Shown here one piece after another: positions 31,291 through 40,242 of a stretch of 64,000 bases of DNA. Under the pieces are notes generated by a model. It searched no databases. It was not told where the DNA came from and saw only the letters and a program-made list of their open reading frames with translations. Source of the DNA: Bacteroidota bacterium (lineage in GTDB: Bacteria; Bacteroidota; Rhodothermia; Rhodothermales; UBA10348); contig JADFHF010000001.1 in assembly GCA_022567305.1 (NCBI GenBank), positions 124,001-188,000 on the forward strand, written 5' to 3'. Position numbers and translations under genes: made by a program. Position 1 is the first letter of the stretch. The number at the start of each line of letters is the position of its first letter.

Positions 31291-32679
31291 TTAAATCCCT
31301 TCGTCGAAGAGCGGAATACCCTCCTCTGTTGCGCTTGATAGTTCACCGGCCTCGAGCTGTTTGGCCGCCGTGTCCACCTGTTCGATCTCCTGAACGTCCT
31401 GAGTAGAACCGGCTCCCATTTCCTTAAAACGACGCGCGGATACCAACACTCGGCGTTCGAGTGAACCCACAGCCGAATTGTAACTCGAAACGGCCGAGTT
31501 CAGCCGCGTACCTACTTTCGAAAAGTGCTCGGCCATCTTGCAAATTCGCTCATAGAGTTCTTGACCAAGCCTGCTGATCTGCTGGGCATTCTGAACAATC
31601 AGGTCCTGTCTCCACCCCGAGGCTACGCCATGAAGCAAGGCGATCAAGGTCATCGGCGTCGCGATGAGTACGCGGTTTTGAATCCCGTATTCAAGAAGGG
31701 TCGGATCGGCATAGCAGGCCTCGTATAACATTGATTCTGCAGGAAGGAATAGGACGACTATTTCCGGGGCCAAGTCAAACTGGGAGTGATACGATTTGGA
31801 CGCGAGGTTCTTCACATGATCCCGGACCTGGCGAACGTGTTGGGAGAAGAACGCTGCTTTAAGATCGTCGTCTTCCTCTTCAACGCCCGATAGATAGGCA
31901 TCCAGAGGAGTCTTTGCGTCTACGACGATGTTACGACCACCTGCTAAATGTACAACCAAATCGGGCCGGAGGAGCCCGTCATCCGTTCGAATCGTCTGTT
32001 GCTCATCGAAATCACAATGTTCCACGAGGCCAGCCAACTCGACGACGCGGCGCAGGTGAAACTCTCCCCACTGACCGCGGACCGTCGGTTTTCGGAGCGC
32101 GGTTACCAGATTACTGGTCTCTTTTTGAATCTGAAGCTGGGCCTCCTGTAACCCCTTGACCTGTTCTTTGAGCGATGAATACGCGTCGACGCGTTGTTTC
32201 TCTATGTCGCCAATCTGTTTGGTGACTTCCTTGAGTGATTTCTCGAGAGGATCGACGAGGTTTTTCATCTCCAACGTACGCTTCTCCTCCTTGGCATCAA
32301 CCTTGGTCAGGAGATGTTCGACTTGGGTCTTTGCAAGCTCAAGAAAACTCTTGTTGTTCGAGTCTAAAGCCTTTCGCGATAAGGTCTGAAACTGGTTCAC
32401 GAGTTCTTCCTGAGCTTCACGGAGTAAGGCCAGTTTTTCCGAGGCGGCGAGACGCTCCTGTTCTCTTGCAGCCACTTCTCCGGAAAGCTGCGCTTTAAGA
32501 TCTGAATTGTCTACCGTAGCACTTTTAAGGTCTTCCGTGAGCGAACGAACGGATTCCTGTTTGTCGTCGAGACGCGTTTTGATAGAGGCTGATTGCGCGT
32601 TATTGATAAACCGCATGACGACCCAAACGATGAGCCCGCCGAGAGCGAACGCGACCATGGTTCCGATTCCTAATTCCAT
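31291..32679 (-). CDS. rmuC: DNA recombination protein RmuC
   Basis: 462 residues. N-terminal membrane anchor (TMVAFALGGLIVWVVMRFI), a long coiled coil (about 35-190), and a C-terminal RmuC nuclease-like domain with VRGQWGEFHLRRVVELAGL, RPDLVVHLAGGRNIVVDAK (restriction-endonuclease-like core) and YGIQNRVLIATPMTLIALLH. RmuC limits rearrangements at inverted repeats and helps remove DNA damage in E. coli. It follows the addA-like gene by 64 bp on the same strand, so it may be the last gene of a repair operon. Confidence 0.9.
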   Translation of the reverse strand: MELGIGTMVAFALGGLIVWVVMRFINNAQSASIKTRLDDKQESVRSLTEDLKSATVDNSDLKAQLSGEVAAREQERLAASEKLALLREAQEELVNQFQTLSRKALDSNNKSFLELAKTQVEHLLTKVDAKEEKRTLEMKNLVDPLEKSLKEVTKQIGDIEKQRVDAYSSLKEQVKGLQEAQLQIQKETSNLVTALRKPTVRGQWGEFHLRRVVELAGLVEHCDFDEQQTIRTDDGLLRPDLVVHLAGGRNIVVDAKTPLDAYLSGVEEEDDDLKAAFFSQHVRQVRDHVKNLASKSYHSQFDLAPEIVVLFLPAESMLYEACYADPTLLEYGIQNRVLIATPMTLIALLHGVASGWRQDLIVQNAQQISRLGQELYERICKMAEHFSKVGTRLNSAVSSYNSAVGSLERRVLVSARRFKEMGAGSTQDVQEIEQVDTAAKQLEAGELSSATEEGIPLFDEGI

Positions 32680-32743: not shown

Positions 32744-35700
32744 TCACGTTACAGGGATCCAGCATCCCTCATGCGTCGACCACAAGCCGCATTCAACGAC
32801 CGGAGAATCGGCCAAAGTTTTCCATGCCCTAGAGTATGCGAGCACCTGCCCGGCGTACTTATCACGAAGGGACTCCGCATCGGTTCGATCTGTTTTGTAA
32901 TCTACGATAGTCCATGCGTCGTCTCTACAAAATACCAGATCAATTGTACCCGTAAGGATCTCTCGTTTCTCGTTTTCAATCGACGAAACGGAAAACGGAA
33001 CCTCGGTCAGTACCTGGTCCGCCACCAAAAGATGATTCCAAACGACTGATTCCCGGAAGTCGGATAGCTGACTCAGAGCCGCATCCGCGAGCTGATTGTC
33101 TGAAACCCGTCCGGTCTCGCATTCTTCGTCCAATACGGTGATTACACGGTTTCTTTCCTCCTCGACCGTACGGGGTGTGGTGCGATGTTGAACGGTGTAT
33201 TCCAGAAGTCGATGCATCGCGTTTCCAAAACCCATCCCGCGGCCCGGTGGCGCCACGGCTCTGGCGCCGGCCCCGATTTCAGCCACATCATCGGCTTCGG
33301 TCGCCTTTTCGATTCCCGTAACCGAGACGACTTCATAAGAGGGTTTCGCGATTTTTTCTAGCTGCTGCTGAGCAAAAGAGAGTCGTTCAAACCACTCGTC
33401 TGACGAGATTGATCGTGATCCCGAAGAATGATCTGGAGACGCCTGGGGAGCATCCTGTGCCTCCGAAAGGATACTCGGAGCATCAGTATCGTCGAGAGCC
33501 GCATAGAGTGGACTCCACGTTCCAGCATCCTCTTTTCCCAAATATCTCGAGACAACCAGCACCTCTCTGGCTCTTGTGGCCGCTACGTAGAGAAGACGCG
33601 TTCTTTCGGCTTGTTCATGGATGAGCTCTTCGCCGAGTGCGTCTAGCCAGCCGAGAGGTTCAGCAATCGTTTGCTCCCGATACCCGACCCGTTTACGAGC
33701 GGGTAAGAACAGGCGATCGCCCGCCTCCGATCGATCAATGTGAATGCGCGGATCTGAAAAATTCTCTTTGGGCAAAGGATCCGCCAGACACACAACGCGT
33801 GCTTCGAGGCCTTTGGCCTGATGAACGTTATAAAGCCGAACGACATCTTTCGTCCCGGTTTCGAGCGTCATTTCTTCAGCCTCAATTTCGCCATTCAACA
33901 AACGATGAAGCTCGACGCGAATTTCAGGCCATCCCAATCCTGTTGATTCCCATGTCCTCATCAAAGAAAGTGTACGCTGAACAGCACCTGCTCGGGCAGA
34001 GCCTCCTTCGTCGAATACGAACGCGGCCATCAGGCCCCTTCTGCTGATGAGCTGCTCGAGTGCATGTGACAGCGAGTTTTCCTCAAACAGCTCACGTGCC
34101 TGGGTCAACGTACCGAAGGCGTCCATGAACGCAGCTTTTTCTTCTCCTGACAGGGATTCGGGTAGTTCGGGTTGGTTGAGATAATCACCCCCTGCCTGTA
34201 CAAACCGGTACAAAACTGCGTCCGATAGTCCGGCAAAAGGACCACGGAGATAGGCGAGTCGTGCCACTGGATCGTTTGCATTGTACACGGTATCAATCAA
34301 ATCGATGAGCGGTGCGAGCGCTCCTGAATGATTGATCGCTTTCCCTCCCGCTGTCACATAGGGAATACCCTGATTTTCAAGCGCGGCCGCATAGATATGC
34401 ATTCTGTTTGATGCCCGAACCAGAATCAGAAAATCGCCGAATCGAACTCCCGACAAGTTGAGATCCGCATCGGCATCGCCGTCGACCGCGCTTCGAATCA
34501 ATCCGGCAAGAGCGGCCGCATCCTTGATGGCGATTCCTGTCGCATTATTCCCGGCAACTTGGTCAATCCTCAACTGCATAACCGGAGGGGTATCCATTCT
34601 TTCGTTGTTGGCCGCGCTCAAGGATTCATATTCAGCCTGGTAGGTCTCGTCGTGCATCGCAAAAAGGGGTTCGACTGCCGAATTAATCCATGCGCAAAGC
34701 TCCGGACGCGAACGAAAATTAGTCTGAAGATGCAGCGACCGGCCACCTGAGAGCTCGATTTGCCCAGCGATCTCCCCAAATACACGGATGTCCGCATGCC
34801 TGAATCTGTATATGGATTGTTTCTCGTCCCCTACCATAAAAAGTGACCCGGGTCGAGGGCGACACTTTTTCCAATCCCTCTCTTTGATATTCCGGGATGT
34901 TATCAGAAATATGATTTGAGATTGGAGTGGGTCTGTATCCTGAAATTCATCTACGAGGATGTGCGAATATCGACCCTGGACGTATTCCCTTAGACCTGGA
35001 TCATCTCTCATCGCTTCGACGACCATCAACAGGAGATCATCGTACGTCAATCGTCCCTGCTCTACTCGATACTGTCTGTATGCCTTTGTCGCGGAGTCGA
35101 CGAACTCTTCGATCTTCGAGTGGACGAATTGCCTCCAAGCGGTAACGGCAGGTCGAACGACGGACGTCACAAATGATGAAATAGATTTGTCTTCGCCATC
35201 AAGCAAAGAGGATCCTTTGAGTGCATTGGCGGTTTGGCGCGCAGGATCTGATTTTGTCCGAGACCATTTAGTGACCGCGACGACGCCGCTGCTTAGGGAT
35301 CCATCTCTTCCGACGAGGCTATTCAGTTTCTCCAAAAACACAGCGCGATCTGCGTTCGTGTTCGTGCCCCGAACGCGCCGAAATCGAGCTAACTCAATTA
35401 CGAGTCCTGAAATCTTATCTACGCCTTCTGAAAACGGCATCCGTTCTCCGATCCAACCCAAATACTTTTCAGTCTTGTTCATCGCACCTGCCAGGTCTGG
35501 CTGCTCGACACCTCTGCTCTCAACAATCAGATGCATGAGCGAAGCGCGGTCTCCGAAATAGTCAAACAGGTCTGACGGTAAAATCCCCAGATCGCCGAAC
35601 TCCTTCCGCCAGTTCAGTTCAGCGGTCAGCGTCAGGCGCAAGTATTGATTCCAGAATTGCCGGCGGAGAATTCGCTCCTGCCTTTCGTCCACAATCTTGA

Positions 35701-36154
35701 AGTCGGGAGAGAGTCCGAACGAGAACGGCCGCTCGCGAAGTAGCGACGAGCAGAAGGCGTGAATCGTATCGATAAACGGCCCATCAGTCGCAGATCGCGC
35801 CCTGCTAACATGCTTCAGTTCTTCTGAAAAGGCCGTTGAGACAAGAAAATCGTCGATGTCCAGCCTCCCCGCGGGATCCAGTTTGGATTCGGCATCCTCC
35901 AGCGCCTCGAAAAATCGTCCCCTCATCTCTCCGGCTGCTTTCCGGGTGAATGTAATCGCGGCCAGGTGATCAACGGGCACACCACACCTGACGAGCGCCA
36001 CCATCCGTTCGATCAGAACACTCGTTTTACCAGAGCCGGCTCCTGCACGAACAAGAAAATTCTCGTCAAGAGAGAAAGAAGAATCGGATGACAGCGGAGT
36101 CAGGAATTCTCGATCCCCCCGAATGGTGCTCCGGATTTGTTCGTCAATAATCAT
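32744..36154 (-). CDS. addA: AddA-like UvrD-family helicase-nuclease
   Basis: About 1136 residues. A superfamily 1 helicase with Walker A RAGAGSGKTSVLIERM, motif Ia ITFTRKAAGEMR, DEAD-like HILVDEFQDTDPLQ, GDEKQSIYRFRHAD, and late motifs YNVHQAKGLEARVV and LYVAATRAREVLV. The C-terminal PD-(D/E)XK nuclease shows GTIDLVFCRDDAWTIVDYKTDR and GQVLAYSRAW. With the adjoining AddB-like protein it would form the end-resection enzyme that processes double-strand breaks for RecA. Its ATG at 36154 overlaps the TGA of the upstream gene (TGATG); a GTG three bases earlier is an alternative start. RecB is excluded because the partner has AddB features. Confidence 0.87.
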   Translation of the reverse strand: MIIDEQIRSTIRGDREFLTPLSSDSSFSLDENFLVRAGAGSGKTSVLIERMVALVRCGVPVDHLAAITFTRKAAGEMRGRFFEALEDAESKLDPAGRLDIDDFLVSTAFSEELKHVSRARSATDGPFIDTIHAFCSSLLRERPFSFGLSPDFKIVDERQERILRRQFWNQYLRLTLTAELNWRKEFGDLGILPSDLFDYFGDRASLMHLIVESRGVEQPDLAGAMNKTEKYLGWIGERMPFSEGVDKISGLVIELARFRRVRGTNTNADRAVFLEKLNSLVGRDGSLSSGVVAVTKWSRTKSDPARQTANALKGSSLLDGEDKSISSFVTSVVRPAVTAWRQFVHSKIEEFVDSATKAYRQYRVEQGRLTYDDLLLMVVEAMRDDPGLREYVQGRYSHILVDEFQDTDPLQSQIIFLITSRNIKERDWKKCRPRPGSLFMVGDEKQSIYRFRHADIRVFGEIAGQIELSGGRSLHLQTNFRSRPELCAWINSAVEPLFAMHDETYQAEYESLSAANNERMDTPPVMQLRIDQVAGNNATGIAIKDAAALAGLIRSAVDGDADADLNLSGVRFGDFLILVRASNRMHIYAAALENQGIPYVTAGGKAINHSGALAPLIDLIDTVYNANDPVARLAYLRGPFAGLSDAVLYRFVQAGGDYLNQPELPESLSGEEKAAFMDAFGTLTQARELFEENSLSHALEQLISRRGLMAAFVFDEGGSARAGAVQRTLSLMRTWESTGLGWPEIRVELHRLLNGEIEAEEMTLETGTKDVVRLYNVHQAKGLEARVVCLADPLPKENFSDPRIHIDRSEAGDRLFLPARKRVGYREQTIAEPLGWLDALGEELIHEQAERTRLLYVAATRAREVLVVSRYLGKEDAGTWSPLYAALDDTDAPSILSEAQDAPQASPDHSSGSRSISSDEWFERLSFAQQQLEKIAKPSYEVVSVTGIEKATEADDVAEIGAGARAVAPPGRGMGFGNAMHRLLEYTVQHRTTPRTVEEERNRVITVLDEECETGRVSDNQLADAALSQLSDFRESVVWNHLLVADQVLTEVPFSVSSIENEKREILTGTIDLVFCRDDAWTIVDYKTDRTDAESLRDKYAGQVLAYSRAWKTLADSPVVECGLWSTHEGCWIPVT

Positions 36155-39123
36155 CACGAAGCCCCCGGGAGGTGTTTCTCAGCGTACTTCCAGTCGGACA
36201 ATAACTCATAGTGCGGCATGTCCGTTTGGGTGGACGCGACTTTGAATCGAATCGAGGTTTTAAGGTGTGACACGTTTCCACATACCCTCTGATAGTCGCA
36301 GAACTTGCAAGCGCCGTTGTCATCGGCGGCCTGGAAGAAAGATCCTGCTTGCACCAGGCGACCGACACGCCTGAGCTCTGCGGCAACCTCTTGTCGGAAG
36401 GCCGAAGGATCGGCTTCAATTCGCCGACCGAGTTCCCGGCTACTCGGAAAGAGATATCCCGATCGGTTTACGGATTCCCCAAGCAGCTCCTCGACAACGT
36501 AGGCATAGAGCGCCCATTGAAGGGAACGCCCGTCGTTGAGTAGATCTTCTGCATCGTACTCGGAACTGGTCCCGGTTTTGTAGTCGGTGATGGCAAATCC
36601 GCCGGTCTTCACTCGATCAATGCGATCAATCCGGCCGAGAAGAGAAATCGATAACCCTTCGAGGTCAATTATAATTTTCTCCGTCCGATCGGTGTCTGAT
36701 TTTCGGTTTTGAGGCCAGATGCCAAAGCCAAACTCAAACGCGTAAGGTTCGGCGTATTCCTGGCGTTCGATTTCGTCGCAGATAAACGCACGCGCGACCA
36801 TTCTCAATTCCGAACGAATCTCCTCTTCCACGGCTGGATTCGGGGCTGATCGAGTGCGAGCAAAATCGTCTACCGCTGACAAAAACAGCTTCTCCAGCTG
36901 GGTCGTGTCAGGTTCAGCGATCGGCCCGGATCGACTGGACATGAACGTGGCCAATATATCGTGTACGAGCAATCCCTTCTCGAGCGGACTCATCCACACG
37001 TCATCTTCGCGTTCATCAAGTGTTCTGGCCTTTAGTACATTCTTCAAGAAGTATCGAAATGGACAGGCCGTCAAGGTTTCCAGCCTGGAAGCCGACCACC
37101 TGACACGGCCTGAATAAGGATTTTTTTGCCGGGACGATATCTGAACCTGCCCGTCGAATGGAGTCCACGATTCTGATTCACGCTGCCGGATTGCATTTCG
37201 ACCTCTACCGATCCAAGGGTAGAGCCGGTCACATTTTTCAGCAGCGTCGTTCTGATCCTTGAGCGCCAGGATCATGTCAGTCCGGTCGAGTGGAAGACCG
37301 AATTCCGGGTCATTGGAGTCGGGTACGTAGGATTGAGGCGAGAGAGACGTCTCTGGCACGTCGGTACCGTCGGAGATCGAGCGTAAGACCGATGATGGAT
37401 ACAGTTCGCGACCGTCCGAAACATCATAGCAGTTGTACACGAGCGTTACCGCTCCCGTAGCTCTAGCGAGTGCGAACTCAAGATTGCGGGGCCGGTCTTC
37501 AGCAGTTTCTTTCGATGTGATCAGGCGATGATCATGCCCTTTTTCGAGACGTTGTTGAAGATCGTCTGGAAGGAAAGGGTTCTCTGACACATGAGTGGCC
37601 ATGGTGAGCTCATCAAGACCCACTACATACAGATTGGGTCTATCCGAATACCCGGCTTGAGAAAACGGTACCACGTGTAGAGACGCAGGTGAAGATTTGC
37701 GGGCTTCGCATCGACGAGTATCCAGGATATCCTGCATTCGACGAACGAGCACTGAGCGCGGTAGACGATCTGTCACCTCATCACTCAATCGCCTGAATAC
37801 AGACAGAATTAGATCGATGGTATCGATGATGGTCTGTTCGACAGACGGTTCATCTTTCTCGTCAACCGAAAAAACGTATGCTTCCACAAAGCGCTCAACT
37901 CGCCCTGAAATCTCCGCGAGAGTCGCCTCTGAATTCACTTCTCCAAGAGATAACAAGGATTGAAGTGCATCCGCTACGCTTCTTGCGATTTCCAGGGATC
38001 TCGTCCGGTCATCTTCTACGAAGGAACCCCTCGCGGCCCTGAGCTCATGTTCCAGTTTCTTCTGGTGCTGTTCAAAAACGTGATGATAGAACTTGGCGCC
38101 ACCGGTCAGATGAACGGTCGAAAGAATGTTTGCTGCGTGAACAGAAATTGAACTGCCGTCTTCGTTCGATTTTCCGAGATGAACGAATCCACCTCGCAAC
38201 ATTTGAACCAGGCGTGAACTGGACTGTCCGTCTCCGATCCACTGCAGAAACTGCCGGATCGCCTGCCCCACACGGGTTGACGTCATCTCGTACCCCTTGG
38301 CAAGGGTGATATCGATGTCAATTCGGTCTGCAAGAGAACGAATGGCCCGGATATAGGGCTCTCTCGATGCATAAACCAGTTCAACCGAATCGAGTGGTAA
38401 GCCTTTCCCAACCATATCCCTGAACACCGCTCGGATTTCATTTTCCACACCCACCGCACTCATGACACGATAGGTCGCCCGGTTGTGCATTCGTGCCTTT
38501 GAATTCTTAGCCAGAGGCCAATCTCTTAATAAGAAGCCCGCCGTCTCTTCTCGGGCGTCAGACGCGTGGGCTGGCGGCCCAATCCTGAAGACCGACGCTG
38601 CCCATCTTGAAAGTGTGCGGACGTAGTCCAATTCAAGTTCGGAGAGCACGACCTCGTCCAAAATCACCACTAATTCAGGCCGAACCGAATTCGGTTCCTG
38701 TTCCAACGTCTTGGCGGAAGAAACCAAAATATCGGCCTCGTCAACCAGGTTTCTCTGACTTAGATAAGATTCGTACAGATGATATAGTTCGGCTACCTGA
38801 TGCTCGCCTTCTAATCTACAGACACTTTGATAGTCAGCCGTCGAGACTCCCGCTTTCCGGAGCGTTCGGACTGTATTGGCGATCGACGAGCCGGACCTGG
38901 TGATCGGGCTCGAAAACGGAACGTCCAAATCTTGAATGAGTTTTTCAAGCAGGATTACGGCTCCTTCACGGGACAAAAACCGCGACCGCGGAGAGCAGGA
39001 AGCATCCCAGATCGAGATGGCATGCTTGGACACGGTTGTGACATGTACATTCAGCCAACCCTGTCCTCCCGCGGCTAGAGCACGAAGCATTTCTGTTCCT
39101 ACCTGGGGGTCAGGAACCAGCAA
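36154..39123 (-). CDS. addB: AddB-like nuclease subunit with Fe-S cysteines
   Basis: At least 989 residues. The N-terminus has VLLVPDPQVGTEMLRAL, typical of the inactive-helicase part of AddB. The C-terminal region carries WSASRLETLTACPFRYFL, the nuclease core LGRIDRIDRVKTGGFAITDYKTG with QWALYAY, and a terminal ACKFCDYQRVCGN. The Cys in ACPFRYF plus the last three Cys would form the AddB-type 4Fe-4S staple. The only canonical start is TTG 39123, yet the frame stays open to 39234 and encodes GRVHIDRTFYSYPLSQLSSA-like residues leading into EKVLLVPDPQVG, so the true start is probably further upstream. The ATG that would serve (39243) is followed by GTT and a TGA. Confidence 0.82.
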   Translation of the reverse strand: MLVPDPQVGTEMLRALAAGGQGWLNVHVTTVSKHAISIWDASCSPRSRFLSREGAVILLEKLIQDLDVPFSSPITRSGSSIANTVRTLRKAGVSTADYQSVCRLEGEHQVAELYHLYESYLSQRNLVDEADILVSSAKTLEQEPNSVRPELVVILDEVVLSELELDYVRTLSRWAASVFRIGPPAHASDAREETAGFLLRDWPLAKNSKARMHNRATYRVMSAVGVENEIRAVFRDMVGKGLPLDSVELVYASREPYIRAIRSLADRIDIDITLAKGYEMTSTRVGQAIRQFLQWIGDGQSSSRLVQMLRGGFVHLGKSNEDGSSISVHAANILSTVHLTGGAKFYHHVFEQHQKKLEHELRAARGSFVEDDRTRSLEIARSVADALQSLLSLGEVNSEATLAEISGRVERFVEAYVFSVDEKDEPSVEQTIIDTIDLILSVFRRLSDEVTDRLPRSVLVRRMQDILDTRRCEARKSSPASLHVVPFSQAGYSDRPNLYVVGLDELTMATHVSENPFLPDDLQQRLEKGHDHRLITSKETAEDRPRNLEFALARATGAVTLVYNCYDVSDGRELYPSSVLRSISDGTDVPETSLSPQSYVPDSNDPEFGLPLDRTDMILALKDQNDAAEKCDRLYPWIGRGRNAIRQRESESWTPFDGQVQISSRQKNPYSGRVRWSASRLETLTACPFRYFLKNVLKARTLDEREDDVWMSPLEKGLLVHDILATFMSSRSGPIAEPDTTQLEKLFLSAVDDFARTRSAPNPAVEEEIRSELRMVARAFICDEIERQEYAEPYAFEFGFGIWPQNRKSDTDRTEKIIIDLEGLSISLLGRIDRIDRVKTGGFAITDYKTGTSSEYDAEDLLNDGRSLQWALYAYVVEELLGESVNRSGYLFPSSRELGRRIEADPSAFRQEVAAELRRVGRLVQAGSFFQAADDNGACKFCDYQRVCGNVSHLKTSIRFKVASTQTDMPHYELLSDWKYAEKHLPGAS

Positions 39124-39270
39124 TACCTTCTCTGCTGCGGGATCAATACCAGCGTTGAGCGCCGAGGAGAGTTGCGAAAGTGGGTATGAGTAAAAAGTAC
39201 GATCGATATGAACGCGCCCAGCAGCGGCTTTGAATCAAACCATAAGAACACTGCTTGAAAGGTATATCAC

Positions 39271-39296
39271 GCCTATGACATCTAGATGTCACAGGC
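39271..39296. promoter_or_regulatory. 26-bp palindrome between addB and the DnaQ-like exonuclease
   Basis: The core TGACATCTAGATGTCA (39276-39291) is a perfect 16-bp palindrome. After one mismatched pair the symmetry continues with GCCT at 39271-39274 and AGGC at 39293-39296, giving 24 of 26 symmetric positions. It lies in the divergent gap of a repair locus, 28 bp from the ATG at 39243 on the minus side and 131 bp from the exonuclease ATG. Its length and place fit a repressor operator serving both sides. It does not match the E. coli (CTG-N10-CAG) LexA box. Confidence 0.55.
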
Positions 39297-39426
39297 TGTG
39301 TCTACATTTCGTTGAATTGAAGAAAAAGGGTCAATAACCGCAATAAAACAGCATTTTAGGGTTTAAGTGATGCTCAATACACCCGGACACGCGCCTGTAC
39401 TTGAATGACAATGGAATAAGAGAGCT

Positions 39427-40242
39427 ATGAGTAAAATAATGATCGCGTTTGATGTCGAAACGACTGGAAAAAATCCGGAGACTGACCAGATCGTCGAGAT
39501 TTCCATGTGCTTGTATGAAGCAGGTAATGAAGAAACGTATCACCGTCTGTTAAAGCCAGACGTCTCGATTACACCCGGAGCACAACGAGTCCACGGAATC
39601 TCGATGGAGGACGTCCAGGATGCCCCGAACTTTGCGGACGTATCCGACGAAATCCTCGAGTTTCTGGCTGCGGCTGAAGTTATTGTAGGGTACAATGTCC
39701 GTTTCGACATACGATTTGTTGAGAAAGAGTTTGCCAGGCTAGGCAAAGAAATCCATCTGGATGAAAAATTGGTGGTGGATCCCTATCGCATTTGGCAGAC
39801 CATGGAACCTCGAAAGCTCGAAGATGCGCATCGAAAATTTGTCGGTGGAGAAATGGAAGGTGCCCACCGAGCGACAGCGGATGTACACGCAGTCGTTGTG
39901 GTGCTTCGCGGTCTTCGTCGTGAGTTCAACCTGGAAGAGGCCTCGTGGGAAGATCTCGCTCAATTGACTGATCCTCAAAGGGAAGCCTGGGTAGGCGATT
40001 CGCAACATTTTCTATGGGAAAACGAGCAGGTCATTTTCAACTTCGGGAAATACAATGGTCGGGAGCTTCTTGAAGTTGCCCAGAAAGATGCTGGCTACCT
40101 GAACTGGATTCAAAGATCTGATTTCCCACGACATGTAAAGAATTTGTGCAAGGGTGCGGGCGCCGGATATGCTCAAACCGTTTTCAATGAAAAGATAGCT
40201 GCAACGTTTGGGCCCCCACCCGTTGCCAGCGAAACGTCCTGA
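39427..40242 (+). CDS. DnaQ-like 3'-5' exonuclease with ExoX-type C-terminal motif
   Basis: 271 residues. A DEDDh exonuclease: ExoI motif AFDVETTG (D9, E11), ExoII GYNVRFDIRFVEKEF, and ExoIII HRATADVHAV with the His and Asp of the DEDDh type. The C-terminal part (about 205-245) has FNFGKYNGRELLEVAQKD and YLNWIQRSDFP, the small domain found after exonuclease X and related proteins. It degrades DNA from 3' ends in proofreading or repair, and is probably a stand-alone nuclease rather than the replicative epsilon subunit. It is divergent from the addB-addA-rmuC block and shares the palindromic gap with it. Confidence 0.85.
   Translation: MSKIMIAFDVETTGKNPETDQIVEISMCLYEAGNEETYHRLLKPDVSITPGAQRVHGISMEDVQDAPNFADVSDEILEFLAAAEVIVGYNVRFDIRFVEKEFARLGKEIHLDEKLVVDPYRIWQTMEPRKLEDAHRKFVGGEMEGAHRATADVHAVVVVLRGLRREFNLEEASWEDLAQLTDPQREAWVGDSQHFLWENEQVIFNFGKYNGRELLEVAQKDAGYLNWIQRSDFPRHVKNLCKGAGAGYAQTVFNEKIAATFGPPPVASETS

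Follow-up and report, generated by a model that had tools for sequence, protein, structure and literature searches.

A palindrome before recA and other DNA repair genes as the probable site of a WYL-family damage activator

The window, the whole 64-kb stretch of DNA that was analysed, belongs to genome G000 (3.76 Mb in 115 contigs). A 26-bp palindrome lies at the right-hand edge of the interval 39124-39296, which separates two divergent sets of repair genes. The flanking genes were identified as the initial annotation had named them, with RmuC, AddA and AddB encoded on the minus strand and an RNase_T/ExoX-like (DnaQ-family) exonuclease on the plus strand. The features of the locus are as follows.

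39271..39296, no strand: palindrome GCCTATGACATCTAGATGTCACAGGC, 26 bp, 12 of 13 pairs symmetric (sequence symmetry, chance expectation)
39276..39291, no strand: putative core activator box, TGACA-N6-TGTCA (half-sites conserved, N6 free)
39303..39308, plus strand: -10-type element TACATT, 11 nt past TGTCA, promoter facing the exonuclease gene (sequence, offset count)
39259..39264, minus strand: -10-type element TACCTT, 11 nt past TGTCA, promoter facing addB (sequence, offset count)
39427..40242, plus strand: gene for a DnaQ/RNase_T-family 3'-5' exonuclease with an ExoX-like C-terminus, 271 aa (family match; orthologues also preceded by the box)
36154..39123, minus strand: addB, first listed start TTG at 39123 (family match)
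32744..36157, minus strand: addA, UvrD-type helicase-nuclease (family match)
31291..32679, minus strand: rmuC (family match)

The beginning of addB is odd. No ATG, GTG or TTG occurs from an in-frame TGA to the TTG at 39123 (39123-39236, minus strand), and the frame is open for about 100 nt above this TTG, where its translation (FKAAAGRVHIDRTFYSYPL...) resembles the N-termini of relatives. An unusual start codon, a frameshift or an assembly error are possible readings.

The palindrome is symmetric at 24 of its 26 positions, and its inner 16 bp (TGACATCTAGATGTCA) are palindromic without a mismatch, as the initial annotation had described. A perfect 16-bp palindrome is unremarkable by itself, since about one is expected per 64 kb; three were found in the window. 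The window contains a single 26-bp palindrome with at most one mismatched pair, where 0.04 would be expected by chance. The actual proof of its function is its conservation in relatives. Nearly all sampled members of the family carry RTGACA-N6-TGTCAY at a similar place upstream of the exonuclease gene, with a different N6 in each; constant half-sites around a varying spacer are the pattern expected of a protein-binding site. The consensus across loci is TRTGACA-N6-TGTCAYA. The exact core TGACAN6TGTCA is present in each of 27 genomes of the family at 2-10 copies per genome, compared with mostly 0-1 for a reversed control, G000 being the noisiest of them (5 core sites versus 4 for the control). 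Searching the genome for the core near repair genes, which the initial annotation had named as its own refuting test, revealed a second site before recA and another before holA. The remaining exact core sites of G000 are that of the exonuclease/addB locus and those before two uncharacterised genes, both of which belong to families found repeatedly behind the box.

A box matching at 9 or more of 10 positions was present in 34 of 37 sampled recA promoters of the class, representing 12 of the 15 sampled families and including two f18 genomes on the Balneolales side; the sampled genomes are mostly MAGs, and the labels Balneolales and Rhodothermia derive from class-level relationship and similarity to published Balneolaeota features. 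The left half of the recA box is almost always TGACA; on the right, either TGTCA or TGACA occurs. The three recA promoters without a box (G038, G039 and G040) come from genomes that also lack the WYL orthologue described below. Judged by this conservation, the palindrome is a regulatory site shared by recA and other repair genes throughout the class.

Downstream genes were assigned by clustering, family search or sequence reading. Behind the box we found ssb (at 11 loci, in several of which a MazG-type gene diverges from it), the exonuclease/addB pair, recA, ruvB, holA, radA and genes for a RAD52-like protein and a methyladenine glycosylase, as well as one case each of ruvA, recR, an sbcD-like gene and a PolX-like gene. 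Targets in families other than that of the window are ssb, ruvA, ruvB, recR, radA, recA and the sbcD-like, RAD52-like and DnaQ genes. In f18, a family of another order in the same class, the site stands before recA, a gene resembling a metallo-beta-lactamase-type exonuclease, and DinB-like genes. The commonest targets of all are two families, A and B, without a match in Pfam or NCBIfam. Family A (13 loci, L149:2001-2474 and L049:1101-1448, both on the minus strand, and 11 more) comprises proteins of about 115-155 aa with a basic C-terminal tail and a modelled structure of three short strands and two helices; its genes adjoin dinB in two loci examined. Family B (17 loci, L002:800-1444 and L156:1780-2406, both on the minus strand, and 15 more) comprises proteins of about 200 aa, and its genes often adjoin a flotillin-like gene. 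Its low-confidence structural model had no significant match in the PDB; a weak 46-residue match to 1y88 gives no more than a nuclease-like hint. Both families are candidate damage effectors.

Two further observations concern genes behind similar sites. TnpB/IS605-like genes stand directly behind the same promoter type at L241, L244, L245 and L247, in two families (G032 and G028), and such transposon genes may have captured a damage-type promoter. DinB-like genes at three f18 loci (L298, L300 and L304) carry the near-identical variant TGACATAGGGTTGTCA; L298 adjoins a fragment resembling a WYL protein, and a SiwR-like paralogue may be what binds the variant.

The box occupies a fixed place in the promoter. 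Of 178 oriented sites, taken from loci that were chosen with no regard to a -10, 61 had TAnnTT 11 or 12 nt past TGTCA, compared with a mean of 0.9 and a maximum of 5 for null offsets. Among the 89 unique sites, such a -10 element stands on one flank in 31 and on both flanks in 15, and the two-sided form of the window recurs at the exonuclease/addB locus of several relatives. The N6, where a -35 element would fall, is mostly unconserved, with one position (G) conserved in about two-thirds of sites, and the -35 position of box promoters shows no conservation. Fixed spacing between box and -10 fits an activator in contact with sigma, and a repressor operator would not need it. These features point to a predicted activator site in place of the -35 element, not to a LexA-type repressor operator. 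The proposal in the initial annotation, an operator of a DNA-damage regulator, is supported by class-wide conservation before repair genes, with an activator in place of a LexA-type repressor as the one correction.

Could the palindrome have no regulatory role at all, being a chance occurrence, a repeat element or an RNA hairpin? Chance does supply about one perfect 16-bp palindrome per window of this size, but the half-sites are conserved across the class while the N6 varies, RNA folding at the palindrome is not unusual (z -1.2) and a terminator scan there found none. We regard this reading as refuted by conservation and its residual probability as negligible. A lineage-specific LexA (SOS) box, at which LexA would repress until RecA triggers its cleavage, would account for a site before recA and repair genes, and G000 does encode a LexA. 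The box, however, was absent from all lexA promoters examined in the family and the order, many of which carry a different, TATGT-N6-TATGTGT-type direct repeat; LexA is therefore improbable as its regulator and was rejected. That direct repeat corresponds to the Balneolaeota LexA motif TTACACATATTTTWTACATA (PMC7739468). It occurs in 7 of the 37 recA promoters, in 6 of them together with the box, so that two systems can control recA. The box is also kept in families whose LexA is built differently (G028 and G034), and no -35 lies between its half-sites. It matches none of the LexA motifs compared, namely CTGT-N8-ACAG, GGA-N5-TCC, CTAA-N5-TTAG and the Balneolaeota direct repeat (PMC8565304, PMC7739468). 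The Balneolaeota LexA regulon belongs to a related lineage and has SOS-type targets including recA, but its LexA represses at a direct repeat and the present site is a palindrome (PMC7739468). All this leaves a LexA box very unlikely. As a separate observation, some families of the order have a second LexA type whose own promoter contains GGTGAAA...TTTCACC-like palindromes (L058, L073 and L075, upstream of lexA), unlike the first type with its direct repeat.

Another repressor, for example of the S24/XRE, TetR or MarR type, might instead block RNA polymerase at the palindrome. Repressors most commonly use a palindromic operator that overlaps the promoter, and among regulators our co-occurrence comparison covered the WYL family only. 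A repressor, however, needs no fixed distance to a -10 element, which 61 of the 178 oriented sites have at 11 or 12 nt; the -35 is missing; and the co-occurring WYL family includes known damage activators of the same geometry. We consider such a repressor unlikely.

The geometry of the site pointed to WYL activators. G000 encodes one WYL protein (325 aa, G000:C35:99442-100416), with HTH_PafC, WYL and WCX domains according to Pfam. Its best relatives in the PDB are the PafBC chains (6sj9), DriD being weaker, and the segment IRNFRLD of its WYL domain aligns with VRNFRLD of PafC. The gene lies in a syntenic block mnmG-rsmG-WYL, usually beside mfd. Orthologues (at least 378 bits) were cleanly apart from paralogues (at most 154 bits) in the first genome set, in agreement with synteny. 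The box is absent upstream of the WYL gene itself, and autoregulation was dropped as a route to the regulator. In this the gene resembles PafBC, whose level does not change.

We then compared the distributions of gene and promoter among 114 genomes of the order, counting as promoter the box followed by N11/12 and TAnnTT (control essentially zero) and as orthologue a best match of at least about 180 bits, which includes fragments. Promoter and orthologue were both present in 57 genomes and both absent in 36, with 11 genomes having the orthologue only and 10 the promoter only. For the 78 genomes that are at least 90% complete, the corresponding numbers are 41, 29, 6 and 2 (Fisher p = 3e-13, which overstates the co-occurrence because the genomes share ancestry, uncorrected here). 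The association holds inside single families (f13, both in 6 and neither in 17; f15, both in 2 and neither in 12). All 10 promoter-only genomes are incomplete MAGs (56-94% complete), and the 11 orthologue-only genomes lack a strict promoter match. Most f18 genomes combine the promoter with a full-length WYL homologue (about 33-40% identity). WYL paralogues of other families might share the box. Genome content, site geometry and homology together indicate that the regulator is most likely a WYL-family damage-sensing activator.

Three known systems are close to the one proposed here. Mycobacterial PafBC, with its RecA-NDp promoter, is also an HTH-WYL-WCX regulator with recA and repair genes as targets, its promoters also lack a usable -35, and in some cases its recA is under LexA too (PMC5656591, PMC6789036, PMC11804915). 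Its promoter tTGTCRgtg-8nt-TannnT amounts to TGTC-N12-TAnnnT (PMC5656591), compared with TGTC-N12 or N13-TAnnTT here, and it works via a -26 element by sigma adaptation triggered by single-stranded DNA (PMC11804915). However, PafBC is a heterodimer encoded by a linked PafB/PafC gene pair and has a non-palindromic site (PMC6789036), whereas here there is one WYL gene and an inverted repeat that is bidirectional, with a -10 on both flanks at some loci. The PafBC genes lie beside pafA, the present gene beside mnmG-rsmG, and the phylum is different. DriD of Caulobacter, the activator of a LexA-independent damage response, is a single WYL activator, as predicted here, and its palindrome overlaps the -35 at a constant spacing from the -10 (PMC12340889, PMC4211646). 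Its site, ATACGAC-N7-GTCGTAT (PMC12340889), has only the GAC...GTC half-sites in common with TRTGACA-N6-TGTCAYA, and it has few known targets, recA not being listed, whereas here recA carries the box. The mycobacterial SiwR (PMC10693628) is a homodimeric WYL activator linked to genotoxic stress with an imperfect palindrome upstream of the -10, but it controls adjacent DinB-like genes and not a dispersed repair regulon. The present system works like PafBC, DriD and SiwR, yet is fully none of them. Within the open-licence literature searched, the motif is not described in the studies of the nearest lineages (PMC8565304, PMC7739468) or in other papers.

Taken together, it is highly probable from these comparative data that the palindrome is the site of a homodimeric WYL activator that, on DNA damage, drives promoters without a -35 element by sigma adaptation. 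A single WYL gene and a palindromic site suggest a homodimer, as in DriD and SiwR, and it is in this form that the HTH-WYL-WCX protein of G000 would bind. The box would take the place of the -35, with the proximal TGTCA at about -26 and a TAnnTT -10 at a constant distance of 11-12 nt from it. When DNA is damaged, the activator would probably bind single-stranded DNA in its WYL domains and let the housekeeping RNA polymerase use these -35-less promoters. With a -10 on each flank, the single site of the window should be able to drive two divergent units, the exonuclease gene and addB-addA-rmuC. recA and further repair genes would be under this regulator too, alongside LexA as a separate system.

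To our knowledge, detailed accounts of WYL damage activators exist for a few systems only (PafBC, DriD and SiwR), and descriptions of damage regulation in this region of the tree deal only with LexA or phage-like LexA substitutes. We think it likely that Rhodothermia (Rhodothermales and Balneolales) share a class-wide damage response. In it, recA, ssb, ruvAB, recR, radA and addAB would be driven directly by one homodimeric WYL activator instead of LexA, from a palindromic, -35-replacing element that can fire both ways, and the activator would also control families A and B as new damage effectors. If so, damage regulation across an entire bacterial class would apparently depend mainly on a WYL activator. 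This would also supply a binding motif that can be tested genome-wide and reveal the PafBC promoter in a symmetric form, and families A and B would be ready candidates for new damage-response functions.
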